A stretch of DNA of 64,000 bases from Nyssa sinensis (taxonomy: Eukaryota > Streptophyta > Magnoliopsida > Cornales > Nyssaceae). A model generated the notes under the pieces. That model saw only the letters and a program-made list of their open reading frames with translations, did not search any database and was not told the origin of the DNA. The DNA is taken from positions 36,363,240 through 36,427,239 of the forward strand of contig CM018051.1 of assembly GCA_008638375.1 (NCBI GenBank), written 5' to 3'. The position numbers were made by a program, and so were the translations under genes. This document shows positions 1 through 53,954 of this stretch, in pieces. Within the stretch, counting starts at the first letter, position 1. Each line of letters starts with the position of its first letter.

Positions 1-56
1 TGTCAGCTCCTTTTGAATCCCCAAATGTAAGTGAGGGAATAGGAAATTCTTCGGAG

Positions 57-1917
57 ATGGCTGTACCGTCTCCTGTGGAAGATGTAGGTGACCTTGCTCC
101 CGAAGATATTGGGGAGAGGCTTGTTGAACCTCCCCGTAGTCTTGGGGTTAGGATAGTTGATGCCTTTGAAGAGCCCCGAGACAGGGCTGGGGAGACCTCT
201 GGTAGGTCTTCCCATAGAGAAGAGGGTGACAGTGCTGTTACTCAGAGCCTTCTGGACGAGTGGAGGGTAAAATACCATTTTCTCCCAAAAGTGACCTGCA
301 GAGTTCCAAGCCCCATGGATCGTCCCCAAAATATTGAAGCTGGGGAGATTTGTGTTTATCTTGCCTGGTTCAAAATGGGTTTGAGACTCCTATTGCCGGA
401 TTTAGTCAGGCAATTCTTTTGTTGGTACAAGCTCTGCCCTGTCGACCTGAATCTCAATAGCTGGCGGCAGCTTCTAGGGTTCATAGTATTGGGACACCAA
501 AACAAGGTGGATGTGTCCCTTGGACTTGATCCGTAGCAATATGGATCTGAAGTTCAAACAGGCAGAAGGCCTTTTCTATATGTCCTTCGAGAAGGGGTTC
601 CGACCCCTGTCCTCCGTTCCCACTTCCAATAAAACGTGGAAGAAGTGGTACTTCTTCGTCGGAGGAGGATGGGAGCATGAAGACTTTCAGGACGGAGAGG
701 CCTCGCCATTCCCTCGTGCTACGGGTCATAAGGGTGAGGCTTATTCCCTTAGGTTTGCTTTAGCTTTGTTATGCCTTCCGAACTGACAAACTGATATATC
801 ATTCCTTACTTATGTGCAGTTAAGAGTGCTTGGAGGAGGCCCGAGTTTACCGACATACTGCGAAATCAGTATCGAGTGCTGCTTTCGACTCCTGACCGGG
901 CTCACTCTGTTATTATAACCCTGCAGAACTTGATAGCTGCTCGTTCTGCAGAGCTCAAGAAGAGGCTGACGTCGAAGTGGGCAGCCACGGAGGCTCAAGT
1001 GGTGGGGGAGGCTTCGTCCCGAGTTGAGCCTGAGCCCCCCTTGAAGTAAAAAGGAGGAGGTTGATTTCTGGCTCTCCCGAGCCAGCCCTTGCCGAGGTTG
1101 AGAAGGAGGCTGAACCTGCCATTCCTATTTCGGTTGCTCCTTCTGCCCCTTCAGCTCCGAGCAGAAGGACTAGGAAGGGGAAAGCACCTGCCGTACCATC
1201 CGAGCCGTTTGATGAGCCGGACTATCAAATTTCCAAGAAGGCATTTGACCAAATATGGGCTCGGGGCCCTCACCGATACAGAGGGGACAACCCCTCAAAG
1301 CTGATGACTGAGATGATGAATCTCCAAATGAGGGTAACTTCTGAAGTTGTTCTTGTCTTTACTGTCTGTTCATTTTGTTCAATCTAACTTATCTGTCTTA
1401 CCTTGTGTAGAGCATGCATAGTTTGGCTGCTCTGATGGTGACTCCCATGGGCCTCGAGGAGGCTGAAAAAATGAAGGCCAAAATGGACGAGATGAGGCTG
1501 GAGCTCGGAACAGCCCAATCCAAGGTTCAGACTGCTGAAGAGGGTCTGAAGGAAGCTAGCACCAACCTTGTCGTGGCAGAGTCTGAGAGGGAAATATATG
1601 CTCAGAAAGTTGAGGGGCTTCAGGCGGAGTTGGTTGAGCTTCGAAATTCCTTTGATCAGAAGGTTCAGGAGGCAGTTGATCATGCCAAGATTGAGACTGA
1701 GACAGAATTGAAAGAGGAAGTCGAACAGATGGGTAATGACTTGATCTGGTTTGGTTTTGAAAGCTTCCGAACTAGATTTCAAGCTCAGTTCCCAAGTTTT
1801 GACGTGTCGTCAATCGTTCCTCCTGAACCTGCCTCGTCTGGTCCTGACCCGTACAAGACGGCTGGAGCTACTACTCTTAATTTGGAAGAGGATCCAGGCC
1901 CTTCTAACAAGGCTTGA
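57..1917 (+). pseudogene. Antisense spliced gene of the Tat element (coiled-coil protein)
   Basis: Coding-like sequence runs on the strand opposite to gag-pol. The first part (57 to about 740) has motifs such as IEAGEICVYLAWFKMGLRLL and NKTWKKWYFFVGG, like the plant 'putative gypsy type transposon' domain family. After an acceptor-like TTATGTGCAG at about 811-820 the frame continues through WRRPEFTDILRNQYR. A one-base slip at the C6 tract near 1035-1040 shifts the frame. An intron at 1334-1410 (GTAACT...TGTGTAG) joins in phase to an exon at 1411-1917. That exon has a strong coiled coil (about residues 15-110) and a C-terminal FESFRTRFQAQFPSFD motif. Function is unknown. Tat relatives such as Grande carry antisense genes in this place. 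Confidence 0.7.
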
Positions 1918-3430
1918 GGCTTTATGGGCTTTTTGATTTTTTGTTATTTCCCTCTTGATGTAATGAATGTATACTTCTGATCAGTAAAATTGACTTTCCT
2001 TCAAATTCTTCTTGTGTTCTTTCCTCCTGTGCAATTTTTTCGTAAGTGTAGCTGTTCTGAGCCTCTTGCATGTTAGGTCAACTGTCCAGTAGTCAATAGT
2101 TGCTCTCTAAGCTTCGATACTTGTTATTGAATAATGAGTGTAGATTAACTTCAACTGTCTCATCATAATAAGATAAGAAAACAAACATAATCGGATAGAC
2201 AAAGCCCAATAGAGTGGGAGTAAACTTTTGTAGAGCTCTGAAATAGACTGTTCTGAATCAAGAGCTTGTGAAGATAACCAGTCAGCTTGTGCTTGACATT
2301 CTGATGCTCGGCATGCTGTTTTTTGAGCACTCAAGATCAGGATATATCCGAGCTGTTTGGCCTTTGTCATATGGCTGGCCTGTCATAAAATAGTTAAGAC
2401 TGGAAGGTCTGAATCTCGGATAGGGGGCCTGTACATCCAGATTTTGTCCCTTTCTCTTTATCAATTCAGAAGCTTTAGTGCTAGACTGTGGTTTTCGTTC
2501 AAAGAGTTCTGTACCCTGTCCCTTGGTATATCGAAGAGGCACATTTAATGCACCGTTTATTTATTCGATTGTCTTTTGGGATTTCGAGGCCAATCTCTTT
2601 TTCACTGTTGCGACGGTTCAGTTGGATGGCTTTTGGACTTCAAGGGTCTATATATATGGAAACGAGGGCATACGTTTGCGCTCAACCCTTTTGTTCCCAA
2701 ATTGTTCCTTTGTAGGAGAGATTTTAGATGCTACCGGAATTTTGTCACTCGCTTGGAGATGATGGATGATTTTCTGTCTGAGTTAAGAATGATTAAACTG
2801 TGGCCGAGAGTTAACCTTCCCCCTTTTTCAGTCTCCAAGGAAGGATTAAAGGAGGCACAAGTCTTCTTGTCCCCTCTGGCATCCGATCGAGATTCCTTCG
2901 ATTGGTGGTGGTCCCTCCTTGATTCAACCGAGGCCTGGAGCGTCGGTGATGAAGACGCAAGTGGGGTGCCTCCTCTTCCTCATGTCTTGGCAGAGACCCT
3001 TGCTCAATTTGGCTGGGGTGAAACAACTGCTTTGAGGGAGATGAATGTGGGCTGCTTCCTCCCCTTTGTGACTTGGCAGAGACCCCTACTTCAATCGGCT
3101 GGGGCGTCATGCTGATTACAAAGGTGGAGAATGAAAAGTCTCTTGAGGCCCAGAGCCCTCATCATCCGTTGGTCGTGAGATCAATGATAGTGATGATGAA
3201 ATGGCCTGGGTGCTCCTTGATGCAGATTGGGGTTCAGGGTTCCTTCCTTTCAAATGGAGCCGGCGACGGCGGTAATGGAAGTGTTGGATCCTGTGCCCCT
3301 TTATCATCCGAGGAAGAAAGCCATGATGTTGCAAATTGTAGCTTCTGTAGTAGCCTATGTAACGATGTCTTTATTGTTTTATTTTCAGCCTTTGTTATAC
3401 TGATGTAAATCTTCTGAATTATCAATAAAA
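1918..3430 (+). pseudogene. Second, decayed antisense unit in the Tat 3' region
   Basis: After the first antisense gene the plus strand has a weak open frame (2576-3115) with Trp- and acid-rich segments such as DSFDWWWSLLDS, and then a stretch at about 3180-3400 coding for SDDEMAWVLLDADW-like sequence in broken frames. Both antisense units end in a similar 3' block: GATGTAAT...TCTGATCAGTAAAATTGA near 1957-1992 and GATGTAAATCTTCTGAATTATCAATAAAATTGA-like sequence near 3402-3434, the latter with an AATAAA polyadenylation-type signal. This suggests an ancient duplication of the antisense gene inside the element. No function can be assigned. Confidence 0.4.
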
Positions 3431-3736
3431 TTGAGTTCTTTTTTCTCAGATCAGATGTTCTTTGTATTCGAATGTGCTCTTCTGTAGTTAAAACACTTTC
3501 TCGTGCACTTCTGATATATGAATGTTCTAAGAATAGATCAAAGAAATTTAGAAGAATGCTTGAATCAAAGTACTTCACTCCTGATTGGTACCATAGTACT
3601 TGTTGCTTGTTAGATAAGCCAAATAATATCAGATCTGAGGTGTTCCGATCTAGGAAACTTTAGTTTGTAGATGTTCGGAAACTTCTGTCTTTGGATGGAC
3701 TGGATCATAGAATCTGTGTATTAAAGATAGACCAGG

Positions 3737-4497
3737 TTGAAGAGACCTGTGCATTATAAATGGACCAAGTCCTTGAGACTTGTACATTATGCACCAGGCT
3801 CTAGAGGCCTGTGCATTATAAATGGACCAAGTATGAAGACTTGTACATTATGGACCAGGCTCTGGAGGCCTGTGCATTATAAATGGACCGAGTGCAAAAA
3901 CTCGTACATTATGGACCAGGCTTTAGAGGCCTGTGCATTATAAATGGACCAAGTACGAAGACTTGTACATTATGGACCAGGCTCTGGAGGCCTATGCATT
4001 ATAAATGGACCAAGTACTTGTACATTATGGACCAGGCTCTGGAGGCCTGTGCATTATAAATGGACCGAGTGCAAAAACTCGTACATTATGGACCAGGCTC
4101 TAGAGGCCTGTGCATTATAAATGGACCAAGTACGAAGATTTGTACATTATGGACCAGGCTCTAGAGGCCTGTGCATCATCGATGGACCAAGTGCTGAGAC
4201 TTGTACATTATGGACTAGGCTCTAGAGGCCTGTGCATTATAAATGGACCGAGTGCAAAAACTCGTACATTATGGACTAGGCTCTGGAGGCCTGTGCATTA
4301 TAAATAGATCGAGTGCAAAAACTCGTACATTATGGACCAGGCTCTAGAGGCCTGTGCATTTATAGATGGACCGAGTGCAAAAACTCGTACATTATGGACC
4401 AGGCTCTAGAGGCCTGTGCATTTATAGATGGACCGAGTGCAAAAACTCGTACATTATGGACCAGGCTCTGGAGGCCTGTGCATTTATAGATGAACAT
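3737..4497. repeat. Dimeric 62-bp tandem repeat with two hairpins per unit
   Basis: About 12.5 head-to-tail units lie between integrase and the antisense genes of the Tat element. The period is about 62 bp, with one unit shortened by an internal deletion near 4010. Each unit splits into two related halves of about 31 bp, both built as GGAC, a small inverted repeat, then a GTRCATTAT-like tail. The first half carries CAGGC-(7 nt)-GCCTG and the second carries CRAGT-(about 6 nt)-ACTYG. Tandem repeats in the 3' untranslated region are known from Tat/Ogre elements and can seed satellite DNA. Open frames across the array are a by-product of the period and are not genes. Confidence 0.95.
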
Positions 4498-4521
4498 TCT
4501 ATGGAAGTAAAAGAAACATCT

Positions 4522-5640
4522 CTACTGATAATACTTCCGTAAGTGTTCCACGTTCCATGGCCTAGGAACAGGCTTCCCGGTCATGTCTTCTAGCCAGTAG
4601 GTGGTACGCCGAACAACCTTTGTTACTTTGTCGGGGCCTTCCCAGTTTGGTGACAATTTTCCCATAGTGGGATCCTTGGTGTTCTGAAAGACTCTTCTTA
4701 AGACATAGTCTCCGACTTGAAAGCTGACTGTCTTGAGTCCTACCTTGGATTTGTTGACCATTCTTTGTTGATAGGCTTCCATCCTGATGCTGGCTTGATC
4801 CCTTCTCTCTTCGAGCAAATCCAAGTTTTCCATCAGCTGCTGATCATTGGTTTCTTGCTTAAAGGCTTCTACTCTCAGGGTTGGCATACCGATCTCAACC
4901 GGAATTACTGCTTCTGTCCCATAGGCTAGTGAGAAGGGAGTTTCAGAGGTGGGAGTTCTTCTGGTTGTTCTGTAGGCCCAAAGGACTCCAGGGGAGTTCT
5001 TCTGCCCACTTTCCTTTGGCCTGTTCTAACCTTTTCTTTAACCTGTCAAGGATTGTTCGGTTGGTGACCTCTGCTTGCCCATTTGCTTGTGGATGGCCTA
5101 GAGAGGCGAAGTGCTGCCTAATGTTAAGATTTTTACAGAATGTCTTGAAGCCTTTACCAGTGAATTGTGTCCCATTGTCGGAGATAATTACACGTGGTAT
5201 GCCGAACCTGCATACAATGTTCTTCCAGGTGAAGCTCTCAACTTCCTTTTCTGTGATATGTGTTAAAGGCTCAGCTTCGGCCCATTTAGAGAAGTAATCA
5301 ATGGCCACCAATAAATATTTCCTGTTCGGAGGTGCCTTTGGTAATGGACCCACGATGTCCATCCCCCATTGAGCAAAGGGCCAAGGACTAGAAATCGGGA
5401 TGAGCTCGTGATGAGGCTGATGTTGGTATGGGGCAAATCTCTGGCATTTGTCAGCACTTCCGAACATATTCCTTAGCCTGTTTCAACATGCTAGGCCAGT
5501 AATAGCCTTGGATAGAGCTCAGTAGGCTATAGTTCTGCCCCCATTATGATTCCCGCAAATTCTCTCGTGTATTTCAGCCAAGACATATTGTGACTCGTCT
5601 GGAGCTAAGCATTTTAACAGAGGTTGAGAATACGACCTTC
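4522..5640 (-). pseudogene. Integrase of the Tat element (broken)
   Basis: The minus strand shows three integrase parts in order. A zinc-binding N-terminus, with HERICGNHNGGRT and the C..C pair near KCQRFAP, lies at about 5640-5440 and has stops. The catalytic core at 5467-4943 carries the D,D(35)E triad: Asp in WGMDIVGPLP, Asp in ISDNGTQF and Glu in GQAEVTN. A C-terminal segment in another frame at 4887-4522 ends with the GP...WLEDMTGK and NVEHLRKYY signature common in plant gypsy integrases. The enzyme would insert element cDNA. Frame changes between the parts show this copy is not functional. Confidence 0.9.
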
Positions 5641-5849: not shown

Positions 5850-6270
5850 AGACTTGAGGCGTGAGGCCATGTTAGCCAGAGCATCTGCTCTGCAACTCTG
5901 GCTTCTCTCAATTTTCTGGATAGTAAACGTCTAGAAGGAATGCCTTAAGTGGTTCACCAATTCAGGAGTACCGAAGCATCCTATCATCTTTAATGGCGAA
6001 TTCTCCCAAGACTTGGCTCATCACCAGTTGGGAGTCAGAGAAGACATCGAGGTTCTGAGCCTCACATTCCAAGGCAAGCTTCATGCCTAAGATTAGGGCT
6101 TCATATTCGGCTTCATTATTAGAAGCTTTGAATCCTAGGCTGACTACTTTTTCTGACGTGAGCCCATCAGGGGACTGTAGTACCAGGCCTACCCCTGAAC
6201 CTTGATCGGTTGACGATCCATCAATGTATAGCAGCCAAGTTCCCGAAGTTTCAGTGAGTTGTGCTTTGTT
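5850..6270 (-). pseudogene. Second, archaeal-type RNase H domain (Tat marker)
   Basis: Reading on from the RT frame past a single TAG stop, the minus strand encodes a recognisable RNase H fold. It has LYIDGSSTDQGSGVG with the first catalytic Asp, then NNEAEYEALILGMKLAL with the catalytic Glu, then VFSDSQLVMSQ with the next catalytic Asp. Later stops break the frame. In plant Ty3/gypsy elements an additional RNase H placed after the original one is characteristic of the Tat clade, so this domain is the main evidence for that assignment. The domain boundaries are approximate. Confidence 0.82.
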
Positions 6271-7722
6271 CTAAAGTGCCGGGGTGAACTCGGCAACGAA
6301 ATCAGCTAAGGCCTGCCCTTTGATGGAGTTTCGGGGTACATAAGATATGTCGAATTCCCCTAGCTCCACAGACCACTTCACCAATCTTTCCGATACCTCA
6401 GGTTTCCTCGGTATTGACTTCAGAGGATAGGCAGTCGGGATCTCGATTGGATAGGCTTGGAAATAAGGTCGAAGCTTCCGAGCTGATATGACCAAGGCAT
6501 AGGCCAGCTTTTCTACTTCTGGATATCTCTTTTTCGTGTCAAGTAGTGCCCTACTGACGTAGAATATAGGCCTCTGCACTCCCCTGTCCCGTTTGATTAA
6601 TACGGAGCTGACCGCGTTTTCAGAAACTGCGAGGTACAAGAGTAGCTTTTCTCCTTGTACTGGTTTTGACAGGAGCTCTGGAGAGGCTAGATACTCCTTT
6701 AGTTCTTGAAAGGATTTTTCGCATTCTTCCATCCAGTGCAAAGCTTTGCTGCCCTTCAGAGCTTTGAAGAAAGGTAGGCAGCGATCAGTGGATTTGGATA
6801 TAAACCTGCTCAGTGCCGCAATTCTGCCATTCAGTGCCTGAATTTCCTTTCTGGTTCTTGGTGACTTTAGTCCAATCAGAGCTTGGATCTGAGTGGGGTC
6901 TGCTTCGATACCCCTCTGAGAGACAATGTATCCCAAGAATTTTCCCTTCGTAACTCCGAAGGTACATTTCGAGGGGTTGAGCTTCATCTTGTGCTGTCTG
7001 AGGATATCGAAGGTCTGGGCTAAGTGCTGGAGGTGACTGCCTTTCTGCAGACTCTTTACCAGCATGTCGTCGATGTATACCTCTATGGTGCTACCGAGCA
7101 GTGGGCTGAACATCTTGTTCACCAACCGCTGATAAGTGGCTCCAACATTCTTCAAACCGAAAGGCATTACTATGTAGCAGTAGAGCCCTCGTTCGGTTAT
7201 GAAGGCTGTCTTTTCTTGATCTGGAGGGTACATATGGATCTGGTTGTACCCAGAGTAGGCATCCATGAAGCTCATAAGCTCATGCCCCGCAGTGGCGTCG
7301 ACCAGTTGGTCTATTCTTGGCAGTGGAAAGCTGTCCTTAGGGCACGCCTTGTTGAGGTCTGTATAATCAACGCAGACTCTCCACTTGCCATTTTTCTTCT
7401 TGACAAGCACGGTGTTGGCTAGCCACTCAGGATAGAACACTTCTCGTATCATCCTGGCTTCCAGTAGCCTTTGGACTTCTTCATTTATAATCCGATGCCG
7501 TTCAGGAGCAATCGGCCTTCTCTTCTGTCTAATTGGCGGGTGATCCGGATCCACCATCAGCTTGTGAGTTATAAGATTGGGATCTATTCCCTTCATGTCT
7601 TTGGTCTCCCAAGCAAAGATAGAGAGGTTGTGTAATGGCCCGATCCACATGGCATGATATTGTCCGCTTTGGGCCTCGGCCCGCACGGCTTTGTTCTTGG
7701 CAGTGGGCTTGCCCCATCCCAA
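6271..7722 (-). pseudogene. pol: Reverse transcriptase and RNase H of the Tat element
   Basis: The 483-residue open frame carries a full gypsy RT core. It shows the first catalytic Asp in SFMDAYSGYNQ (about residue 154), the VMPFGLKN block, and the YIDD active site at about residues 216-219. The connected RNase H region ends near the conserved ALADFVAEF. The first 30 or so residues (7722-7631) are not RT at all: they are translated from the end of the nested TRIM-like element. The true upstream pol coding resumes on the far side of that insertion, at 8266 and above, with a DNL...IFAW context typical of the segment before RT. An in-frame TAG at 6273-6271 separates this frame from the second RNase H. 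Confidence 0.93.
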
Positions 7723-8260
7723 AAGGCCTCATTGGGTATCAGAGTGCCAGCCGAAGCCTGGGCCCGTCTCCCACATGATATTGTCCTCTTTGGTCCCAGC
7801 AGGCCCGAGTACTCAGCCTCAATGACCTCTGGATTCGACCTCAAGGTTTTGTTTCCCACTGGAAGGGAAAAGTGAAGGACTTATATGGATGGTTGCACAT
7901 CTCCTTGGTACAACGCGTTTTAAAGCCGTGCGGGCCGAGGCCCAAAGCGGACAATATCATGCCATGTGGATCGGGCCATTACAAATGGTATCAGAGCTGG
8001 ACCTCAGCCGAAAAGTGTGCCACGGGGACGCGGGCCCTCCTGAGTGGTAGTGGATGGCTGAGAAAGCGTGCCTGAGTGCATAGGGACTCGGCATCCCACA
8101 TCGCCTGGGGAAAGGAAAGGTGAAGGATTCATAAGTAAGGGTGCTGCTTTCCAATGGTATGAGGCCTTTTGGGATGGGGCAAGCCCACTGCCAAGAACAA
8201 AGCCGTGCGGGCCGAGGCCCAAAGCGGACAATATCATGCCATGTGGATCGGGCCATTACA
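7631..8260. mobile_element. TRIM-like nested element with 102-bp perfect terminal inverted repeats
   Basis: The insert starts TGTAATGGCCCG and ends CGGGCCATTACA, and is flanked by the direct repeat GGTTG (7626-7630 and 8261-8265), a 5-bp target duplication of the LTR-retroelement type. The outer 102 bp (7631-7732 and 8159-8260) are exact inverted copies. An internal copy of the same end (7922-7983) lies in direct orientation to the right end and is followed two bases later by TGGTATCAGAGC (7986-7997), the initiator-Met primer-binding site. No coding capacity is present. It resembles plant TRIMs, small non-autonomous LTR elements, but the inverted left end is not a normal LTR arrangement. It interrupts pol just upstream of RT. 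Confidence 0.85.
7986..7997 (+). other. Initiator-Met tRNA primer-binding site of the TRIM-like element
   Basis: TGGTATCAGAGC follows the internal LTR-like end ...GGCCATTACA after two bases. This is the standard primer-binding site of plant copia and TRIM elements. A weaker lookalike, GGGTATCAGAG, occurs at about 7735 just after the left inverted terminus. Confidence 0.75.
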
Positions 8261-9099: not shown

Positions 9100-10866
9100 G
9101 TGGTAGGGGAGTCAGCATGGAGGACGTAGATGACGTGGTTGTTCTGCCTCTGAGGCTCGTTTCGTCCCTCCCTCTGTTCCTGCCTCTGTTCGGGCCTTTG
9201 GTCTGGCCGTTGTTGAGGCTTATCTTCTTGGGGGTTCTGTCTTCCGTCCTGCTTGACAAACTCCCGAAGACGCCCATTTTTTATGAGCTGCTTTATCTCA
9301 TATCGAAGGGTCCTGCATGTGTTAGTTGTATGTCCATGATCTTTATAGAAATTACAATACTTACTTTGGTCCCGAAGACTGGGATCTCCTTTGATTGGCT
9401 CTAGCCACCTCAGGTTCTCCCGATCTCGGATCTGCCGGAGTACCTGGTTCGGTGTGGTGTTTAAGGGAGTGAAGTTAGTGAACTCCCTTGGTCCGAATTG
9501 TACACAGCTCTGGGAGCTGTTCTCTTCTCTAGGCTCCTGGCCCTCTTTTTGTTGGAGTCTCTTCTGTGATCCTCCTTCTTGTGGTCCTCCCTCTTTGGAT
9601 TGTCCCTCTAGGTCTGATCTTTGCCCTTTTTGGATGTGCGGTTGGCTTCTTCCAAGTTGATGTACTTTTTGGCCCGATCTATTAATGCCGCCATATCGGC
9701 TGGAGGGCTCTTTGTCAAGGAGTCTCTAAATCCACCTTGGGCAAGTCCAGCAGTTAGGGCTGCTACAAGGAATTTCGGGCTGCAATCAGTGATCTCCGTG
9801 AGTTCGGTATTGAAGCGCGCGATGTAGGCTTTGAGGGATTCCTCCCTAGTCTGCTTGACATTTAACAGGAACTCTGGGCCCCTACTGAGCCTCCTGTTGA
9901 TCATAAACCTGTCCAAGAACTGTCTACCGAGCTCGTAGAAGTTGGTAATTGAGTTCAGAGGGAGGTTGTGGAACCACTTCAGAGCAGTTCCCTTCAAGCT
10001 GGTGATGAAAGTTCGGCACATGAAAGCATCAGAGGCCCCATGAAGGGCCATCGTATGCTGGTAGTGCAAGAGATGATCTCCTGGATCTCCAGATCCATCA
10101 TAGAGGGTGAACTTGGGCACCATGAACTTCTGGGCCTCTCTTCTGACATGATGGCGGGAGTGAACGGAGTGGCTAGTCTTTCGAGTAGCCTGGCCAATTC
10201 GTCTTGTTCTAGAGGGTTCTGAGGTCCTCTCAAGGCGATTGTTCGGTCCATAGACTCGGTAATTTCCTCTACCCTCCGTGGGTCTCTGAGTTTGACATCT
10301 TGCGAACCCTGCCTGACAGCCTCGGCTTCAGGGTAGTAGGGTTGAGTACGCCCTTCGGACAGAGGAGGATTCCGAATCGGAGGGATTGGTGCTGCATGGG
10401 GATGAGGCTCCTGCGGTGCTGGATGTGCTCCCGAGGCCCTTGGAGTTGGGGCCCGAGTAGTACTCCGGTAATGGACGTCAAGAACGAAGGCTGATGTTCC
10501 CTAGCCTAGAGCTGCTGACGGTTAGGGATCTCTGCCAACGCGGGCAACGCCTGGGGGGTGCCCAGGCTGGTTAGTTGGAGCCTGTTCATGAAGTTCTTCA
10601 TTCTCCGTGGCAACAGGAGGTTGCGTTCCCGCAGCGAAGTTGACCAGCGGGTTAGGAGAACCCACTGCTTGGTTTTGTGTGAGTGTTGCCAGCGTTCTAG
10701 TAATGGCAAGCAACTGTTCTTGCACCAGTTCATTGTGTCGTTTGATCGATTCGATCTCTTGTCGCATGGGGTTAACCGCTGGTCCCTTTGTATGAGGAGC
10801 AGGCGGCTGACGTTGAGAGTTTTGCGAATTCTGAGTATTCTGTCGCGGTCGGAGATTTGGTGCCAT
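9100..10866 (-). pseudogene. gag: gag polyprotein of the Tat element (frame-disrupted)
   Basis: The likely start is the ATG at 10866, 58 bases inside the primer-binding site. The first 115 residues (to 10522) are rich in Gln, Pro and Asn, with a helical stretch around MRQEIESIKRHNE, typical of a gypsy gag N-terminus. The best preserved part is 10123-9608. There a retrotransposon-gag capsid domain is recognisable by LKGTALKWFHNLP, by FLDRFMINRR and by the run ESLKAYIARFNTEL. A basic, Arg/Gly-rich tail in a different frame follows at about 9277-9020. The three pieces lie in different frames, so the gene is broken. The product would package element RNA. The family call is secure. Confidence 0.85.
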
Positions 10867-10923
10867 GGTTTTCTGGTGAGGAAAGAGATGAGTTTATGAA
10901 TAGAGCACTTGGAGATTAGTCGT

Positions 10924-10941
10924 TCCCTACAGACGGCGCCA
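10924..10941 (-). other. Primer-binding site of the Tat element
   Basis: On the minus strand the sequence directly after the LTR reads TGGCGCCGTCTGTAGGGA, which is the form seen next to the 5' LTR in many plant Tat-type elements (complementary to a tRNA ending GGCGCCA). It lies three bases from the inferred LTR end, as expected for minus-strand DNA priming. I do not assign the tRNA species with certainty. Confidence 0.75.
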
Positions 10942-10944
10942 AAC

Positions 10945-11588
10945 TGATGCTGCACTTTTTGACTCGCAATAAGTGTGGGCTCCGTGACTTGTAGAACACT
11001 CAGAAAGACGATCAGAGGTCCACCGGATTGGTTCCGGCGGTAGCCAGCTCCGATGCTTAAGTAAGTAAAAGGAATTGAAAGACTGTATTGAAAGCCAAAG
11101 AATGAGCATGAAAATAAAGCGTACTTTTAGGGTTTAATTTATAGACCGTGGCTTTCCTAAGTTGATTAGGATTCGGAGCCATGATTGTAGGGATTTGATC
11201 ATCGGAGATTGCAGTTACCTTGTTGAGTATCGCATAGAGATAACCATAGATGGTAGTTTTCTTGTTGAAGACTGCTTCCTTATTCCCTGCTCGGCATTCG
11301 CTAAGGCGGTGACGAGGTCTGGAATGTTGGTCTGGACCCTGTGATCAGTACTAAGACCCTTGTCCGGATATATGTGCTCTGAAGGCATATGTTCAGTTAC
11401 TTCCGACCTTTTGTGATGATCTGGATGCTTGAGCTTTTAATCATTGGCTGAGTGAGAACCGTGTTGGCCGAGCATGAGTTGGATTATGGTCATACGTGTC
11501 ACGTGCTGATTGGCCTGCTCTTTATGGTATATCAATATCTATTATTTTACTTGAAAAGAAGTTTTTAGGGGTCTAATTTTGGTTCACA
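10945..11588 (-). repeat. 5' LTR of the Tat element
   Basis: On the minus strand this stretch starts TGTGAACC and ends GCATCA, just upstream of the primer-binding site, so it has the TG...CA ends of an LTR. A TATA-like TATAAATT lies on the minus strand at 11136-11143, correctly placed to drive transcription toward gag. The outer border (11588) rests on the TGTG terminus only, because the partner LTR is outside the window. A diverged relative of this LTR occurs at 45660-46095. Confidence 0.72.
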
Positions 11589-12121
11589 ACTTTTGGTGGG
11601 TGTCTATCAAGGTAGTATAAACAGCAGCCTAGAAATACCCTTCTGATTAGCAAAGTAGACAGGTCTAGACTTCAAGAAATTTAACTTCAATTGGAATCAC
11701 GTGAACAATAGAAGACTAGTAGTTCATGCATTGACACTCAAAAACACCCCTTCTCTTCCAACAAGTTCAGGAGTTTGAGTGCAGACATAATCAGAAGATG
11801 AGAGTTCAAGAATTCAAACATGTAATTCATGACTTACTAAAACAACATTTGTGCAAACAGAAATTTAATTTACAAAAAAAGTTGCTAATTTTTTTTTTTT
11901 AATGAGCCGGAACCAATCTTACCAACTGCAACCTTCGGTAATGCATGTGACCGACCCTAAACCGGAACTCCTTCTACTACTATTTCACACAAGTTTTCAC
12001 TTGTCAGGAAGATTTTCTAAAAGAAACTCGTAGAATATTGAACAGAAATCTAGTACTCTTTAAACACTTTTTTTTTTTTTTTTGGCATTCCAATCAGCTA
12101 CCCCTGAGTAAAAAGATACTA
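11589..12121. other. Spacer between Tat LTR and SDR gene
   Basis: AT-rich sequence with poly(T) runs at about 11890 and 12068. I see no gene, repeat terminus or clear polyadenylation signal for the neighbouring SDR gene, whose 3' untranslated region must lie in the right part of this stretch. Confidence 0.5.
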
Positions 12122-13764
12122 TTACAAGCCAATACAATTCCTTGAGATGGTAACTCCACCATCCACAACAAGGTTATGACCACTTACGTATTTGGACTCA
12201 TCACTAGCAAGATATAGAGCAGCCTCGGCTATATCTTTAGCCCTTAATGTTGAACCTTTCAAGTTCCCCAGCCCTCTCACAAACTCCTCCATCTTCTCTA
12301 TTTCTTGTTCACACGGTGTCCCAAACCTCATGCATTCCTCTTCTTCTTCATCATTACTCCTCCATGCATTAACGAGCATGGATGTGGCCACCCCAAACGG
12401 AGATATGCAGTTAACCCTAATGCCATACCCGCCGAGCTCACAAGCGGTGTTCTTTGTTAGACCAACAATGGCATGCTTTGAAGCTGTGTAACCATGTGGA
12501 CCGAGCCCTCCCATGACTCCAGCTACACTAGCTGTGGAAATGATGCAGCCAGCACCTCTAGGAATCATAACACGTGCTGCATGCTTTATGCCTAGTGCTG
12601 TTCCTCTCACATTCACACGCATCACACGATCAAATTCATCTACATCAAAATCAACAATGCTCTTGTGCTTTGATTGATTTCCGAGCACTCCAGCATTGTT
12701 GAAAAGGATATCGAGCCGCCCATAACGGGAAATAGTTGACTCAATCAAGTTCTCAATGTCTTCTTCCAAGGTAACATCACAGTGAACATAGGTAACTGAA
12801 GAAGCCAAAGAGTTGGCGAGCACAGCTCCCAGTGTATCCTCAACGTCGGCAATGACTACCTTAGCACCATGTCTAGCAAAGAGTCTTACTGTTGCCTCTC
12901 CAATCCCTTTAGCACCGCCTGTGACAATAGCAATCTTTCCCTCCAACCTATGCAATTTCAACAAATAAAAATTATTTTTCAGTGCTTCTATGTTTTATTT
13001 ATTTATGGACAACCATACTTTCAGGAACAGAAGATGCAAATATGACCGTTTAATATAAAGTAATGCAATATCCAAACAAGGGTCTCAAGTAGAAATAGAA
13101 TATTATTGTACATATGTTAATAAAAGTCATTACTATATTTAATATATAGTTACAACAATAGGCACAAATAATGTGCTGATTTAATATGTAATATTATATA
13201 TATTTAACTGTCTGTCATTTGAGGAGCTAATCTTTGAGATTTAGATTTTGGCGAAGCTTCAGCCGGCCGGAAAAAGTATGATTGAGTCTCCAAATTCATA
13301 AACGAATCATAGGTGAAGGCATTCTTCTGAAAAAATAACATAGATGTACTACAAAATATCAAAACTTACATTGATATTTGCAATTTTAGTTGTTTGATAT
13401 TGCTTGTGTTAGATAATCAGTTTGTTTCAAAAATTAGGTTGTCAGTAATTGAAATGAATAATTTATATTAAGTTAATTTTTTTGTGTGCAATCTGGTCTT
13501 ATACAACTACATGAAAAGATAACACACTAACACAAGAAAATGAATGAAAAAAAAAAAAGAAGAAGAAGATTTAAATTTAATACTTCTCATAACTATCACG
13601 TTAGATTATGAATTATTCTGAAATTTTAAACAATTAAAAAACTAAACTCAATAATGTATATCAAGTTAAAAGAGCAATTACCTTTTATGAGAGGGACTAA
13701 TATTTTCCCTTCCCAATACATGAATTCCTTGGAAGGTTTTCTCAGGAATCACTTGAGCAGGCAT
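12122..13764 (-). CDS. NAD(H)-type classical short-chain dehydrogenase/reductase, two exons
   Basis: Exon 1 is 13764-13682 and exon 2 is 12947-12122. The 734-bp intron has GT (AAAAG|GTAATT) and AG (TTGCATAG|GTTGG) borders, and the split Arg codon restores the frame, giving 302 residues. Visible motifs in the spliced protein are the cofactor loop TGGAKGIG (37-44), Asp62 after the second strand (favouring NAD over NADP), NNAG (111-114) and the catalytic tetrad Asn140, Ser168, Tyr181 and Lys185 (YTASK). The C-terminal [12 protein letters not shown] resembles the plant SDR110C group that includes xanthoxin dehydrogenase, Tasselseed2-like and secoisolariciresinol dehydrogenase-like enzymes. These oxidise alcohols of hormones or specialised metabolites in the cytosol. 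The exact substrate cannot be read from sequence. All motifs are intact, and this is the only convincing intact host gene in the window. Confidence 0.93.
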
Positions 13765-13830
13765 GGTGAGAGACAGAGAGAAAGTGATGATAGCCAAACA
13801 AAGAATGGTGTTGGTGAGAGTAGACAAGGC

Positions 13831-13837
13831 ATTTATA
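13831..13837 (-). promoter_or_regulatory. TATA box of the SDR gene
   Basis: On the minus strand the sequence reads CCTATAAATGCC, about 67 bases upstream of the ATG at 13764. A start site some 30 bases downstream would give a 5' leader of roughly 35 bases. This spacing supports the exon-1 ATG chosen for the SDR gene. Confidence 0.65.
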
Positions 13838-13952
13838 GGCGGTGGATGAAAAGAAAAAAACAAAAAAAAAGGTGTTAGGGGTGTAGCATGGATTGTAGTC
13901 CCACGGGAACACAACCCGTTTTAGTGCGCTGTCTCACTAATGCCAAGAAAAA

Positions 13953-13960
13953 GCCACGTA
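13953..13960 (-). promoter_or_regulatory. ABRE-like element upstream of the SDR gene
   Basis: The minus strand reads TACGTGGC, an exact match to the abscisic-acid response element consensus YACGTGGC, about 190 bases upstream of the SDR start codon. Such an 8-mer can occur by chance, but the position in the proximal promoter of a gene from the xanthoxin-dehydrogenase-like family makes it worth recording. Confidence 0.4.
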
Positions 13961-13964
13961 GGCG

Positions 13965-15868
13965 ATGCACTTAGTGGGGCTTGTTATTAATGTTCAACTA
14001 GCCAGCCGTGTTTTGGGAGAAATTATGGGGGTTCTTTTCATTGTTTAAATTTTTCGATTTGTATTCAGAGCTTGCTGGTAGAAAAATATAGAATTTTTTT
14101 TCTTCATTTTTTGGTAATTTAAAATTAAAGAATTTTTTACTCTAAGAAAGTAGTCACTCTTATACCAATTTGACTAAGAAAATGCAGTTACATTTTCAAT
14201 ATGATATGTTAATATTTGATAGTTTGAATTTTAGAAGATGTGATTTTTAAAGTCACTATATCTTAATACATTAAATTAAAAATATAAATTTAAGATATAA
14301 ATTAAAAATACTTAATACTATTTATTTGACTCTATTATTCACATTTTCATTTATTCACCTGGAATCTCATTTTTTTAATAATTAAAATTATACTTTTTGA
14401 ATGTCAAGTAATTCAATTAAAAGTGGAAATAGGGTTGCCAATATATTTTGTGCCCTTGAGTAATTCACACTTCAAAAGACAAGATTTAGATTATGTTACC
14501 TGAAAAATGGGTAAGTTGGTTATGTGAAAGAAGAATTTATTGTATGAATCAAAATCAATAGTTTCAGTCAATCATAAATTGTCATATATATAATATATTT
14601 AGTTTTTAAGAGACAATAAAACAATTTTTATTGATACAGTAGTTTATGATTGGTCAAGACTATTAACTTGATCAATAATCCAAGACTATATAATAAGTTC
14701 TCGCCTGCGAGGGGTGTTCTCCCATTTTCGAGGCAACTTCCTTGGTGATATTCCTTTATTGCCCCATGGATGTTTCTGCGCATACCTAAGTACCAAAACA
14801 CCCCAGAAATTTTCGTGGGGATAAAAAAATATTTTCCATCTACTTAATAGACTGGAATTGATTTGATGCATTGACCTGAACCCAATTCACACAAAAACTT
14901 GAAAACACTCTTTTCATTACATGCCTGAATTGAATGTATGGTTCCACCGCTACCACAGTACTCAAACCTCAGTCATCTTCCTCTTTTGTTTTAGAGTGAT
15001 GCTATTCTCACTAAATAGCTAGACATCTTTCATTGAAATACAAAAGATAATTTTTTAGAACAACCAAGATCTTATTATATTCAATATTATCATTCTTTTA
15101 AATGTTCATAGAATTGTAAGTCTTTTTATATTTTGTGGGTATAAGCATTTTCTTAGTGAAATCATTGTTTGGGCTACCCAAAACTAAACTCACTCTCGTA
15201 AAAATACATACCATTTTCTACTTTGAAGGCTACTTGTTAGTCGTTAGGTTGTTAGTTGCTCTAAAAGCTTTAAAAATTGGCATACTGATGTAACGAAGTG
15301 TAAGGTAAGCGAGTGTGAGTGCGAGTGCAAGTGCGAGTGCAGGTGAGTGGGTGTAAATTGTACCGAGTGAATAAAAACTTAAACCCAAGACCTCTTAGAG
15401 GTAAAGTTCTAATACCGTGTTAGATTATCAATTGTTTTAAAAATTTAAGTTGTTAAAAAATAGACCAAAAATTTATATCAAGCAATACCACTACCAAAGC
15501 AGTCAGAGGCGTATTTAGCACTGCGGCAGGTGCCCCCACTAAATTTTCAAAAACAAAAAAGGTCAATTCAAAATTTTTAAACTTTTAAAACTTGCCCCTC
15601 ATGGATAAGTTATTTGAAAAATTCCCCCCTAATATGTCACTCTTATATGCCTCATTATCTCTCCACTTTTCTACACCTCTGTCCCCCTCTTTCTTTCTCT
15701 CATTAGGTTCAACATCTCTGCCGCTCTTTCTCTACATCTCTCTTACGTCTACTTCTTTCTATGTCTAGTCCTTGGCCTCCCCTCCGTTTAGTCTCATTCA
15801 ACCTTCAATCATCCTTGATTCTCAATATCTCTACACCATCTCCAAATTGAATTGGTGGCTACTGACTA
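13965..15868. other. AT-rich intergenic spacer with a small palindromic MITE-like sequence
   Basis: No gene is seen. At 14558-14664 an imperfect inverted repeat of about 25 bp (left arm around CAATCATAAATTG, right arm around GTTTATGATTGG) brackets about 50 bp of AT-rich DNA, the layout of a short MITE. A GAGTGC-type imperfect hexamer repeat lies at 15309-15352. The stretch AGAGGCGTATTTAGCA...GGTGCCCCC near 15507 resembles hAT-type terminal sequence found widely in plants, but I found no partner end. Confidence 0.4.
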
Positions 15869-17428
15869 TGTCACGCCTCTGACTTGTAGGGCCAGACTAA
15901 GGGGTCATTGAATTCTGATAAGGTAAGTAATAGGACTAATCATCCTAGTCAAGTACATAAAATACTAGCCTTTCTTTTTTAATTGATTTCCTTTAATTAT
16001 TTAAATCATTTTCTCTTTAATCAGTTTTAGTTTGGATTCCCTGATTAAACTTGTTCAAGTCCCGTAACGGAATTAAATGAATTTGATTACATTTTCAACG
16101 TAACTATATTAGATAACCATCAATTATATTAAACAAGGTATGTCTATAGCTGACTCTATAGTTCTTATATCCATGACATATACATGAATAGTATGAAGGG
16201 TACATGCACCCTTGATAAATAAATGAATAAATACAAGAAAGTAACTAAACAATGCAGTGACTTCAGTTCATCCCATACTGCTCCTACAGCTATCTTCCAT
16301 CGAGGCAATACCTATCATTCCCATGAACAACAAGGGATGAGCCATAACTGCTCAGTAAGGTTTCCCAAAACACACAAGGAAGCAGCATGCCGAAAAACTA
16401 ATGCAAGTCCGAAGAAGATATACCCTATAGTCCAATATGCATCACAAGCACACCATCATATCCCAAACACAGGCATAAGCATAAATGTAAAAAGGGCATT
16501 AAACCACTACATGTGGTTTGACAATAATAGTGAAGTAGTCAATACATGGAGGGTCGAGCACATGACATAAATATAAACATATGATTCCATGAAGCACCTT
16601 CATTTCTTGTTTTAATGCTACAAGAACAATATATTTAAACATATAACCAATCACAAGATGTAAGTATAAACTTACCAACCCCATGAAGCACTTCTATTTC
16701 TTGTTCAAAACCATAAGAACAATGTATGTATTCACAGCTAAGAAACCATTCACAATTGCCATAGTACTACAACTGGTAGTATACAATCCATCAATGATCA
16801 TAATGAAGTATCACAGATAAGTCAAGGAAAATAATTTCAGTGAATCAATCATCGGCAAAAAGGGATAAAGTTTTATTCATCTCATTTCATTATCTCAATA
16901 GTCTCAATCCCATGAGTATTCACCAAATTTGGCTCCCGGTAAGTCTAAGTGTTTTACGGGCTACCAACCCTGATAGAGACAAACGACCACCTACGCGAGT
17001 TTACGGCTCGCAAGTTAAGAAGAGACACCATTTCTATCATAAATGGAACCCCGAGTAAAGCGCAATCTCACCACGCTCAAAGGCACACAAAAAATGTGAC
17101 TAATTCCCATCCAAAGTCCTTTTCTTATAAGTGTTCTTTACCAACATCTCAATCTACACCACAAACGATGCTCATCAACATCAATATTCTCTCAAATCTC
17201 ACACTACTCAAGTATGTTCAACAAGATATATTATATATCTATATTATATCAATATCATCAATATCCACAACAACACTAACAATCATAAGAGAGGATATAT
17301 GATTCAACATAGATATGAGAGTAACAGTGATCGTATATATATATATATATATATCAACATCCACAACAACACTAACAATCATAAGAGAGGATATATGATT
17401 CAACATAGATACGAGAGTAATAGTGATC

Positions 17429-17462
<34 letters not shown>

Positions 17463-17680
17463 GACAAAAAATAGAAATCATGATAAGCATCAACATGGCA
17501 ATCACATGTACCTAATGTAACCATGAAAATATCCAACTTCATAGCATTCGATGTAATAATCACGCCATATTGATAATGTAATGGCGAGGTATCAAATGAT
17601 ACAGATAAACATATCATGTGAATCACATAGCAAGTATACACATCATGGCATCAGGACATTGTCCTTGTCCAAATCCTCAA
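15869..17680 (+). repeat. Probable gypsy-type LTR remnant
   Basis: TGTCACGCCTCTGACTTG at 15869 has the form of a plant chromovirus-type LTR start. The interior contains a phrase around 16935-16975 about a TTTTACGGGCTACC motif, common in such LTRs. Two internal tandem duplications occur: a diverged repeat of about 105 bp at 16575-16720 and a nearly exact repeat of about 97 bp at 17263-17460, each copy ending in (TA)n. No coding domain is visible. The right boundary is taken as the start of the next LTR at 17681 and is not independently supported. Confidence 0.4.
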
Positions 17681-18159
17681 TGTAACACCTGTGACCTAAT
17701 TTTATTGTGAATGTTGTAAAATCAAAATAATACTAATTAATAGTACAATATTGGATTTCGCTAAAAAGCTGAATTTATGCACTATATTAAAAGATATAAT
17801 AACGAAAGATATTTTTGAAGCTGTGAACGTGTTATGTACAGTAATAATGAATTAAGGTTAGGAATATGGCCTAATTATATGCAGACTTAATCTAACCACG
17901 ACTAATAAATTTAAGTGATTTAATGCATCGGTAACTGAATAGTGCCAAATGTATATGTGTAGATAATGATAGTGTGCGAATATTACCTGCGCATGGATTT
18001 GAATAGTGCACGTAATGATGTATGCATTGTTGTATGGACAAGATAAGAGGATAGCCAAAAGTGATTGTCACCCCACCAGTGTTTTGGGCATGTGAAGTGA
18101 ATAGTATATATATTACATATGCACACTAACAAGACAATATATATATATAAGTAGGTATA

Positions 18160-18190
<31 letters not shown>

Positions 18191-21100
18191 CTATAAATAA
18201 CATGGGAGTCAATAGTAAGAAGATATAGGTGCATATATATATATATATATATATCTTTATATTCATACAAATAATGAATTATTAAAAAGAAAAGAAAAGA
18301 GAGGGTGGGGGAAGGTGTCTACCACCAACTAAATCTATAGAAATAGAGAAAGCTTCCAAAGGAAGCCTCACATGGTCAAAAATAGCAAGATATATAATTA
18401 TACGTACAGAAACCCAAAGAGGAACTCAATTAAATAAGAACAAGAAAATGGGTTTCTGGTAACTTAAGGAGCTCAGAAGATGAAGCATGCAAGGACAAGA
18501 GTCCGAGGGAGAGGGAGAGAAGCCATTGAAGGTAAGTTTCTCTCACTAAAATTCTTCTCTTCAAATGTTATTGTTGTGAGTTCTAGTTAGCATAAAAATG
18601 CATGAAACTATAAAAGAATGAAAATGGAAAGAAAATGAAGTTGGTTAGGCTAAGAAAACCTAGACAACTAAAATACCCAAAAAAAATATGAGGAAAACTG
18701 GGTTTTGAACCCATGTCAAACTAAACTTAAAAGTAAGGATGAGGTTCAAAATAGCATAGAAAATGGGACTGCGAAGCAAGTTAAAGCAACAAAAATGGTC
18801 ACGGGACTATGGAGAGAATCAGAGTTATAGGTATCGTAAGATAATCGGAGTGAAAAGATTTTTGGTTGATTTAATTGGTTTTGTGAATGGTAAATGGTCC
18901 CTGAGGGTTTCAGCAAATCAATGGAGTAAAAATAGGGCAAAATCAACATCGAAAACTCCACGAAATAGGAAAAACAAACTATCGCTGAAAAAATGGGCTT
19001 CGCCGGAGCAGCCCTATAACTACCTATTTCGACGACCATGGTTAGGTAAAACCAAATTTCAACATGGGATATGGAATCCTCATAGAAAAACAATTCGAAC
19101 CATGTTGCATTGATTGCCAGAAAATAGTTGTCGGAGTTTTCCATCGTCGAAAAAGGCAATTAGTGCCTGTAGGGTCCTTGTTGACCAAGTCAACTATTGA
19201 CCAGGTCGGTCAACGAGTCGAATCGGGTTGACCCGCTTTGAATGGATCCTAATAATAAATGGAACGACATCAGTTTTGATTTGGTGAAGGGCTGATGTCA
19301 TCATGACGCAAAGAAACCCTAAAATCGGTTGGTTCTCATCCATTTTGGACCGGTTCACTTGGTTAGGAACTAGACCAGTCGGTTTTTTATTTAAAGTTTC
19401 CTAAAATTATATTTTGACCCCCAAATGTTTTAGTTAATTACAAAATGGACCAAAAAAATAATTATAAATTATTTTAAATCCTTTTTAATTATGAAAAATT
19501 ACCAAATGCCCTTAAGCCAAAAATAAGCCAAATGAAGGCCAATTAAAGTGAAAAAAGACTTTAACCCAATATTTTTGGGTGTTCCAAACTCAATAGCAAA
19601 GTTTGATTCACGAAACTAGATTCCAAAAAATACGAACAAATAAACTAGAATAATTTTAACTTTGTCCTAATATATTAATTAAGTTACCAATTGAACCCCG
19701 ATGACTATAGAAATACATACCTTAACATTTTTTGACATTTTGGACCTAACAATGGAGTCTGTTTAGTCAAACGAGGTACCAAAATTATAGACATATAGAA
19801 ATGTAAAATTTCTAAACTTCCTTTAGCATTTACGGGGTACCAAACAGATTGAGAAAATATAGGGAGGGGTATAATTAATGTTTTTGGACGTTTTGAACCT
19901 AATAGTGAAGTCAAACTAAGCATCCAGGTACCTGAATATGGTCTCGCATGAAAGTGTAAAATTATGAAAATGTCCCTAAAGGCTAAAGTGAGCACACAGT
20001 GAACTAAGAAGTATTAGGAACCCTAATTAAAGACCATAAAGGAATCCTAAATAGTAAGACTAAGTCCAAAAAGAGAATAAGTACATTAAGTAAATAAAGA
20101 TTAAGTCCAGTATTATACTAATATAGTACCAATGTATTTGAACCCATGCTTTAGGAATGCCAAGGCATATCAAGTAGATGAATAAAGGAATGACTGTGAA
20201 CATTGGACCAAAGGTGAGTAACCTAGAACCTTGAAGTGGAGACATTTTCTATGAAATGTAGTTGTTTACAATTTTATAATACTACATGCAGTTCTTTACA
20301 GCTTTATAATATATTTCAGACTCCTATTCTAAATATTTTAACTGCATGACTATTTATAGAAAACTAAAATAAATGGTTGAATTTTATGCTTTTAAGTAGT
20401 ATCTCCTTAAATGTTTCATATCATGGATAGCCTATATAGAATGTTTTATAAGTATGTTTTAGTTTTATGTGCCTTACGACACCCTGCTGGGGGTAAAGAG
20501 CCGGTAGACTTCCAGTAAGTCTTCATAAGCGACTCAGCTAGAAGTTTGTATACGGTGAGAAGGCTATATAGGCCAAAAGCTCTAAATTACATAGAGTTGC
20601 CAATGTGACATTTATAGTCCCTAGGGACTGAGCTTATGAGATGTATAGCACAAAATGTTTTCACAGCTTTAGTTTATAGGTCACCATGTAACAACCCAAA
20701 GTCCTAAAGGATAACAGTTTTTAAGAATGTGGCATGTTCTAATTGCTCACCTGTATCACATTTTATGATATCATATTTAACTTGCAAAACTATCTGGCAT
20801 AAACTATTGCATGAATTCCTGTATATATCTTGCAACTCTAGTTATATTTTCATGCTTTAAGAATGCCAATAGCTTTCAATACAGACCTGTCCTATTACTA
20901 TCCATGAGACTTTACAAAAATGGGGTTTCCCTGAAAACCCATGATAGGGGACCGGTGTTACTTACAAGCTTTTCAATAAAGCTTACATGATTTTTATCCT
21001 ATGTATTTCAGGGATTAGCAAGAGGTTTTCAAACCCAGCTACTATTGAATCATAACGAATAAAGGCACTGGTGAAAGGTTGATTTGTATCCTAACTATAG

Positions 21101-21441
21101 AGATGACAACCTGAGACCATAGAAACCAGAATTATATGACGGGGAAAGGATAATGAGCAAAATTCATCAATATTGTAATAATTAAGGGTTTACGTTATTG
21201 TAACTCTAATGTACAGTTTAATTATACTCTGCCAAGTATGACTGCATTCAAACAAAATTTTTAACAGATGAGAATTTTGTTGCACGATTTCACGTAATAA
21301 AATGAATCTACTTGGAAATGATAAAAAGACCTTTGGTTAGAGACATTATCAATATGATATCAAAGGTTAGTGTATTGGTGAAGTGCCTAATTGGCCGGTC
21401 ATTATCCCTGATCTGCATAGGCTAGGTTCGGGGATGTGACA
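17681..21441 (+). repeat. 3.76-kb LTR of the long-LTR element
   Basis: It begins TGTAACACCTGTGACC and ends GGGGATGTGACA, with a methionyl-tRNA primer-binding site four bases downstream. About 0.85 kb in, a purine-rich tract is followed by GAAGGTAAGTTTCTCTC (18527-18543), which looks like a 5' splice site. Related LTRs share this tract: one at 47336-49620 on the same strand, and one in inverted orientation at about 25400-27900. Open frames inside it (for example 18746-19159) are not convincing genes. Confidence 0.7.
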
Positions 21442-21445
21442 TAAT

Positions 21446-21457
21446 TGGTATCAGAGC
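21446..21457 (+). other. Primer-binding site (initiator Met type)
   Basis: TGGTATCAGAGC lies four bases after the LTR end GTGACA. The same site occurs in the duplicate at 52501-52512. Confidence 0.8.
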
Positions 21458-27066: not shown

Positions 27067-27106
<40 letters not shown>

Positions 27107-28440: not shown

Positions 28441-28477
28441 GACATCATATCATCATTATGTGTGTAGTTGACTTGTG

Positions 28478-29277: not shown

Positions 29278-29439
29278 ATAGATTTTTCAATGAGCATGGC
29301 CGGCTCCAGAGCTTTTCATCACATATAGTTTTTCGTGTTGGTTTCTCTATCATCATGTTTGGTTTGCAAACTCTTTTCATGCTTACAATTTCTAAATTTC
29401 TCAGCATGATTATTATTTCTGCTTGATTTAGAATTAGGT

Positions 29440-31868: not shown

Positions 31869-31897
31869 AGATATATATATATATATATATATATATT

Positions 31898-53900: not shown

Positions 53901-53954
53901 TTGTAACCCTTGATTAGGTAGTAAAAATTGATAATTATGCTAAGAAACATACTT

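Follow-up and report, generated by a model that had tools for sequence, protein, structure and literature searches.

The window, that is, the whole stretch of 64,000 nucleotides of Nyssa sinensis DNA analysed here, contains a tandem array of hairpin units close behind the integrase of a minus-strand retrotransposon. The array, the parts of the element and an open frame beyond the array are as follows.

1411..1917, plus strand: open frame from stop to stop, 168 amino acids, antisense to the element and 3' of the array in the element's sense
3729..4497, minus strand: tandem array of hairpin monomers (A of 33/34 bp, B of 28 bp, dimer of 61 bp), 3' of the integrase in the element's sense
4498..4521, minus strand: tract between the integrase stop and the array, pyrimidine-rich in sense across the Tat loci examined
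4522..5025, minus strand: C-terminal part of the integrase, with the GKLSPNWEGP motif and the stop codon at its end, without a Pfam match of its own
4943..5482, minus strand: integrase core (Pfam rve), in a frame different from that of the C-terminal part
5962..6270, minus strand: second RNase H domain (RVT_3 / RNase_H), between reverse transcriptase-RNase H and integrase
6271..7728, minus strand: reverse transcriptase and RNase H
9608..10327, minus strand: gag (Retrotrans_gag)

Along the minus strand, reverse transcriptase-RNase H (7728-6271) is followed by the second RNase H domain (6270-5962) and the integrase (5482-4522). The second domain was matched by RVT_3 (E 2.6e-11) and RNase_H (E 1.4e-07), and RT_RNaseH was found separately within 6271-7728. 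A second RNase H between the first one and the integrase is described as a mark of Ogre/Retand-type Tat elements (PMC6317226) and has the same position here; judged from its domains, the host of the array is a Tat-type Ty3/gypsy element of the Ogre/Retand type. Since the integrase is split across two frames, this copy looks dead. LTRs were not found for the element, and the candidate extra ORF lacks a Pfam match. A blastn comparison of 1-3800 with 10001-20500 gave no LTR match, and the 3' LTR may fall outside the window. The plus-strand frame at 1411-1917, for which Pfam gave no match, is possibly the extra ORF of Tat elements; in Retand elements this ORF is reverse-oriented. For the Retand subclade, an extra ORF in the 3' part is given for 23% of elements with Transposase_28, with a minimum of 250 codons that the present frame does not reach (PMC6317226). 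An AATAAA lies on the plus strand at about 3430, some 1.5 kb beyond this frame and, with the frame before it, suggests that the array may sit between two convergent transcription units.

Elsewhere in the window, a coiled-coil-like frame on the plus strand (46872-47360, no Pfam match) resembles the 1411-1917 frame by eye. Tandem arrays of another kind, built of 32-bp hairpin units (GGACTCT...AGAGTCC), occur at 22907-23487 and 53962-54537; in a comparison by eye their stem changes were often one-sided, and no integrase frame was seen alongside. The window also carries a 13-kb duplication (19884-32968 and 50938-64000, 98.3% identical over 13103 columns), which contains further repeats of about 0.6 kb. 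Two other frames were judged by eye: 12122-12994 is presumably short-chain dehydrogenase-like, and 38610-39116, with FADD, we take to be a fragment of a LINE-type reverse transcriptase.

TRF gave the array a period of 61 with 12.5 copies. Thirteen A monomers alternate with 12 B monomers, which are 28 bp long except for one of 29 bp and one of 22 bp. A preliminary description had placed a tandem array at 3737..4497, in a Tat element and 3' of its integrase; the array is real, the second RNase H domain is present and the placement was right. A coding repeat was set aside, as 61 bp cannot be divided evenly into codons. The units referred to below are these.

3729..3761, minus strand: edge A unit, CAGGT...ACCTG in plus-strand letters
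3762..3790, minus strand: first B-type hairpin unit, CAAGT...ACTTG in plus-strand letters
3885..3912, minus strand: first of six identical CGAGTGCAAAAACTCG units, the others starting at 4062, 4245, 4306, 4368 and 4430
4007..4028, minus strand: B unit without a loop, CAAGTACTTG

Listing the units confirmed the B hairpins as first counted, six with CAAGT (five closed by ACTTG and one, a wobble, by ATTTG) and six with CGAGT...ACTCG, as well as the perfect loopless palindrome at 4007. The paired A/G and T/C change between the two B forms had been read as covariation within the array. This reading was not upheld: the six CGAGT hairpins are letter-identical, so the change is a single variant in six copies. 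The first A unit does read CAGGT...ACCTG, as claimed, but in the CAGGY-TGAARAG type, to which 17 first units belong (the window's among them), the final letter of the left arm is T in seven and C, opposite A, in ten. The remaining A units had been described as CAGGC...GCCTG or a wobble form. The unit at 3974 (CAGGC...GCCTA) has C.A on the plus strand and U.G in the element's sense RNA; in those at 4212 and 4273 (TAGGC...GCCTG) the reverse applies and the sense RNA has C.A. By eye, A and B share GGACCARGY, the loop and RCYTGTRCATTAT; they look like paralogous monomers, so that the two kinds of hairpin first distinguished would be a single hairpin family. On either strand the array folded more stably than 20 shuffled versions (z -5.1 for minus, -10.9 for plus), which is expected of a tandem palindrome by construction. 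A more-than-chance signal can hardly be drawn from the window alone.

The family was examined in 40 arrays, the window's and those at 39 other loci of its own genome (a 1.0-Gb assembly in 211 contigs), with 680 dimer units including partial ones. The arrays had 12 to 43 dimer units each. Copy number this variable would suit the idea that the hairpins cause the array, with monomers that slip and amplify more in copying and have no role in the life cycle; for reasons given below, we consider this improbable. One-sided stem changes were common: pair 1 of A was TG in 37 cases and CA in 35, and the paired TA occurred twice against 2.2 expected (plus strand). Among the 520 interior units, strong covariation was found at one of the ten inner pairs, pair 2 of B (p 8.5e-89), and it belongs to one linked haplotype in which 132 of 135 units share a loop class. 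The lowest p at the other nine was 0.029, uncorrected, at pair 2 of A, and the remaining eight gave nothing. Six outer pairs tested in the 40 arrays did not covary. When all units were counted, paired double changes were in excess at three further pairs, namely pair 3 of A (AT, 16 against 2.8 expected), pair 5 of A (TA, 18 against 1.7) and pair 3 of B (GC, 10 against 0.4), much of which comes from other unit types at the array edge. Because one haplotype carries the strong signal among interior units, covariation within the window's array was rejected as proof.

Private variants, counted in the 680 units without loops and eight polymorphic columns, were found at 0.0198 per site in stems and 0.0142 in spacers. 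Unpaired stem changes in other copies thus reach the background rate, which counts against the covariation claimed within the array. The claim of free loops beside kept stems stands for the loops, which are the more variable, but conservation in spacers roughly equals that in stems. Private variants giving a sense wobble or its mirror image stood at 85:89, with 90:69 expected; the missing wobble excess is what decay would produce. Types with at least three copies across the 40 arrays were the paired CAGGC, CAAGT and CGAGT, four G.U types and two A.C types. Within the window's family these data favor an account without selection on folding, in which a few mutation events were multiplied by unequal exchange and deamination sites placed as mirror images altered both arms alike: the strong covariation is one linked haplotype, stems mutate at no lower a rate than spacers, and CHG sites account for some of the commoner transitions in stem A. 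We rate this account as unlikely on the comparison between families given below. Inserted copies with broken frames decay freely, which is why unpaired changes abound in single copies, and changes within the family therefore measure decay after insertion and say little about the active lineage. The lesson for method is that dead copies hide covariation by decaying, and that the test belongs between families.

The integrase motif pattern GKLxPNWEGP had 3716 matches in the same genome. From 100 listed matches, all on chromosome C1, 70 Tat loci were used, 40 of which were picked, mostly for differing integrase codons. TRF found a tandem array in 67 of the 70 (none in L073, L096 and L102), and in 65 of these 67 it began 168-213 nt downstream of the motif's first nucleotide. 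In the 65 measurable loci, the first unit followed the integrase stop at a median distance of 42 nt. Nucleotides 5-26 after the stop had a median pyrimidine fraction of 0.76 and a lowest value of 0.55 (62 loci). Some loci of the L049-L118 set have TTTCAG within this tract, which we take to resemble a splice acceptor. Viral contigs scanned with the integrase end gave no relative. In integrase-tail third positions, clades differed by 0.31-0.58, and two close clades by 0.14; the clades were set by hand from the tree and covered 47 of the 70 loci, with L066 left out for its frameshifted tail.

Short units were selected by flanks with at most one mismatch and a loose stem pattern, and a type was called amplified with at least three copies in a locus. 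Amplified short monomers of this kind were present in 43 of the 70 loci. Full pairing was found in 64 of the 69 amplified locus-types; four had G.U and one was broken. Types seen once comprised 8 paired, 49 G.U and 69 broken ones (118 not paired), and those seen twice per locus 3 paired and 17 not. When distinct types from the 70 loci and 40 arrays were compared, 4 of 12 amplified-derived and 6 of 124 rare ones were fully paired (p 0.006); among the amplified types there are two with A.C and one that is otherwise broken. The amplified paired stems, in sense, were CAGAC/GTCTG (19 loci), CAGGC/GCCTG (23), CAAGT/ACTTG (19), CGAGT/ACTCG (2) and CAAGC/GCTTG (1). The imperfect ones were CGGGC/GCCTG and CAGGC/GTCTG, both with G.U and in two loci each, and the broken CAGAC/TTCTG in one locus. 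Other families have stems CAGAT/ATCTG or CTAC..GTAG, or long units with an inner second hairpin. Where a hairpin lies inside a hairpin (L070, L084, L086, L093, L095 and L106), the inner stem takes two paired forms, CTTGCA/TGCAAG and CTTGTA/TACAAG.

The flanks AATG, YA, GTC and CAT, where Y is C or T, were 91-98% constant per base in 375 hairpin contexts from 53 loci, picked around paired short stems regardless of flanks. Most clades, by comparison, differ by 0.31-0.58 at third positions of the integrase tail. Slippage of hairpin monomers leaves these near-constant flanks (AATGYA/GTCCAT) unexplained, as it does the fixed place after the integrase stop, and partly unpaired units amplify too. The spacing between arms was mostly 4 to 7, and 38 of the 53 loci had at least two spacings. 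This variation makes it unlikely that the units are DNA dyads, in which a dimeric DNA-binding protein reads both half-sites so that both change together. Symmetric sites in many copies would suit such a protein, and the paired changes would look alike in DNA, but some families enclose a second hairpin, and with the strand-specific wobble preference described below we regard dyads as very improbable. For the TRF consensus units of 67 loci, fold z-scores gave no uniform picture (medians -1.2 sense and -1.6 antisense), and the strongest were mostly in long-unit families. Low scores also came from other arrays of the window, those with hairpins (22907, 53962) as well as the short ones at 31387, 31976 and 63005, and so fold z-scores were not used as proof.

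Covariation between families was measured on 35 distinct monomers, each present at least twice in a locus; as the alignment was anchored on the flanks, the inner stem alone was tested. Of the cells, 98.6% were paired, 35 cells were changed on both sides (9.6 in shuffles), and the covariation score was 0.340 (0.180 in shuffles), with none of 500 shuffles reaching any of the three values; the shuffles ignore the relatedness of the monomers. Two of the five measures did not stand out, as 59 of 500 shuffles reached the number of pairs changed on both sides and 496 that of further pair types. When partners were slid by 1-3 columns, 6-36% were paired. Stem-preserving change, as first proposed, thus finds no support within the array but does between Tat families, where fully paired stems differ and three of five measures exceed the shuffles. 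Pairing at this level over so many distinct monomers argues against the account without selection. Under a rough neutral model with transitions only, four successive paired double steps had a value of 0.0006-0.0024.

The order of the stems was examined on an integrase tree of 335 columns and 71 rows, built by a quick method with a midpoint root. CAGAC is scattered over the outer families with three changes, and CAGGC and CGAGT also have three each. CAAGT needs one change, on a 20-row clade supported at 99, and CAAGC occurs in row L066, which neighbors the CAAGT clade, and in L115. The tree suggests the order CAGAC, CAGGC, CAAGC, CAAGT, CGAGT, in steps of one pair. Some forks are open, states change in several places, and which of CAGAC and CAGGC came first is only partly settled. 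Steps with the same loop were counted in the 70 loci and 40 arrays together. At pair 4, loop TCAG occurs with CAGAC in 16 units and with paired CAGGC in 6, and loop CTTCAGA with CAGAC in 14 and CAGGC in 20. Loop CTTAGT spans the pair-5 step (CAAGC 5, CAAGT 63), and loop YTTTGC the pair-2 step (CAAGT 3, CGAGT 101). For pair 3, loop CTCYAGA has 491 CAGGC units and only three with paired CAAGC, which all belong to arrays of the window's family and may be products of double decay. If the tree order is right, paired steps go both ways, from A-T to G-C at pairs 4 and 2 and from G-C to A-T at pairs 3 and 5. Symmetric deamination as the sole cause is not enough for these directions.

Template switching in DNA replication or reverse transcription, by which one arm rewrites the other and stems are perfect without function, would also change both arms. 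It has been proposed to create and maintain RNA hairpins (PMC8794818), and reverse transcription of a hairpin array gives it many chances. Half-steps exist and are amplified, however, which indicates that many changes were sequential. Every stem type among the 93 stem-loop combinations examined has a neighbor one pair away. Inverted loops were rare, in 4 of the 93 and all of 5 nt, which counts little, since such loops are described as extremely rare, isolated pair changes as uninformative, and short switches as leaving no such trace (PMC8794818). Template switching also predicts no strand preference of G.U over A.C, and as a general source of these stems it seems rather improbable.

If the sense RNA folds, a G.U half-step would be tolerated and its mirror image A.C would not; if DNA folds, both would be treated alike. 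Motif-anchored units were counted genome-wide with both strands added. Sense G.U exceeded A.C at pair 4 (1187 against 212) and pair 2 (889 against 60), and U.G exceeded C.A at pair 5 (361 against 75). Pair 3 had no wobble excess (G.U 862, A.C 909). Its context is CAG/CTG, where decay is frequent, and in the first 100 listed places per form its variants mostly numbered one or two per array. Pair 3 can serve as a sign of strand-symmetric mutation, but at the same time the expected excess is missing from it. Counted by eye, the arrays on C1 with such units stood at 36:14, 21:2 and 19:7 for pairs 4, 2 and 5. Together these make 76:23, which differs both from 1:1 (p 8.5e-08) and from the 1.31:1 expected on spacers (p 4.1e-05); pair 5 alone does not differ from the latter (p 0.11). 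At least three such units were present in 19 of the 76 G.U arrays and in none of the 23 A.C arrays (p 0.005). Among the listed matches, about nine amplified wobble lineages were counted by eye at pairs 4, 2 and 5, with one amplified A.C case there. Many of the wobble units come from few amplified lineages, and the true weight of the excess is therefore below the raw counts. The asymmetry at three pairs with mirror-image contexts argues against mutation without selection, and the sense preference is left unexplained by slippage.

Taken as sequence evidence, these results point to a multicopy structured element, a hairpin kept in the sense RNA of Tat retrotransposons, and we give this interpretation close to an even chance. 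In the sense transcript the short monomer would fold as AUG-YA-stem-loop-stem-GUC-CAU with a stem of 5 to 7 bp. In this fold, a short ATG/CAT helix on the outside would be separated by an asymmetric internal loop (YA/GUC) from an inner stem free to change while pairing. Pairing may have been kept because lineages whose RNA lost it left fewer descendants. A protein, either Gag or a host RNA-binding protein, could bind the repeated hairpin, or the hairpins might give the beginning of the 3'UTR a form that favors stability, export or packaging of the genomic RNA. More tentatively, the hypervariable 3' repeats of Tat elements may as a class form a repeated RNA module that directly follows the integrase stop and whose YA/GUC internal loop is constant while its stem drifts freely. 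Selection on the sense genomic RNA would maintain such a module, a protein would read its many copies, and the repeats would be more than by-products of faulty copying. A caveat to selection on the sense RNA is that arrays exchanged between families could produce apparent steps. Tat elements are abundant in many plants, and if their 3' repeats are a selected RNA structure, the role of these repeats becomes testable by reporters and probing. The contrast of G.U with A.C can also tell which strand folds.

The place behind the stop codon and the pyrimidine tract recalls elements that shield long 3'UTRs from decay, and packaging or export would fit equally; the preliminary description had suggested packaging, 3' end formation or export as possible roles. 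Termination-proximal shields of long 3'UTRs against nonsense-mediated decay, such as the Rous sarcoma virus RNA stability element and the unstructured region of carmoviruses, lie likewise after the stop codon (PMC6277124), and such elements are also the subject of PMC5580461 and PMC4764554. The analogy is one of place alone, without sequence relation, and carmovirus protection comes from a lack of structure. In the template-switch hairpins of PMC8794818 both arms change as they do here, but the array differs by its amplified half-steps and its strand preference. Tandem repeats in the 3'UTR of Ogre and other Tat elements are described as lying downstream of gag-pol, as hypervariable in monomer and length, and as able to seed satellites (PMC7004042). 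The arrays found 3' of the integrase, in the window and in the Tat loci on C1, are tandem and have the same place. A literature search mostly short of full texts, and without the 2009 description cited in PMC7004042, gave no account of hairpin units or co-changing stems in Tat 3' repeats. The main text of PMC7004042 is without the words hairpin and palindrom, whereas the units examined here are hairpins, with short monomers that have co-changing stems and common flanks. Within the literature searched, the tandem repeats at the 3' side of Tat elements are therefore known, and the hairpin architecture with co-changing stems, as it appears from these sequences, would be new.
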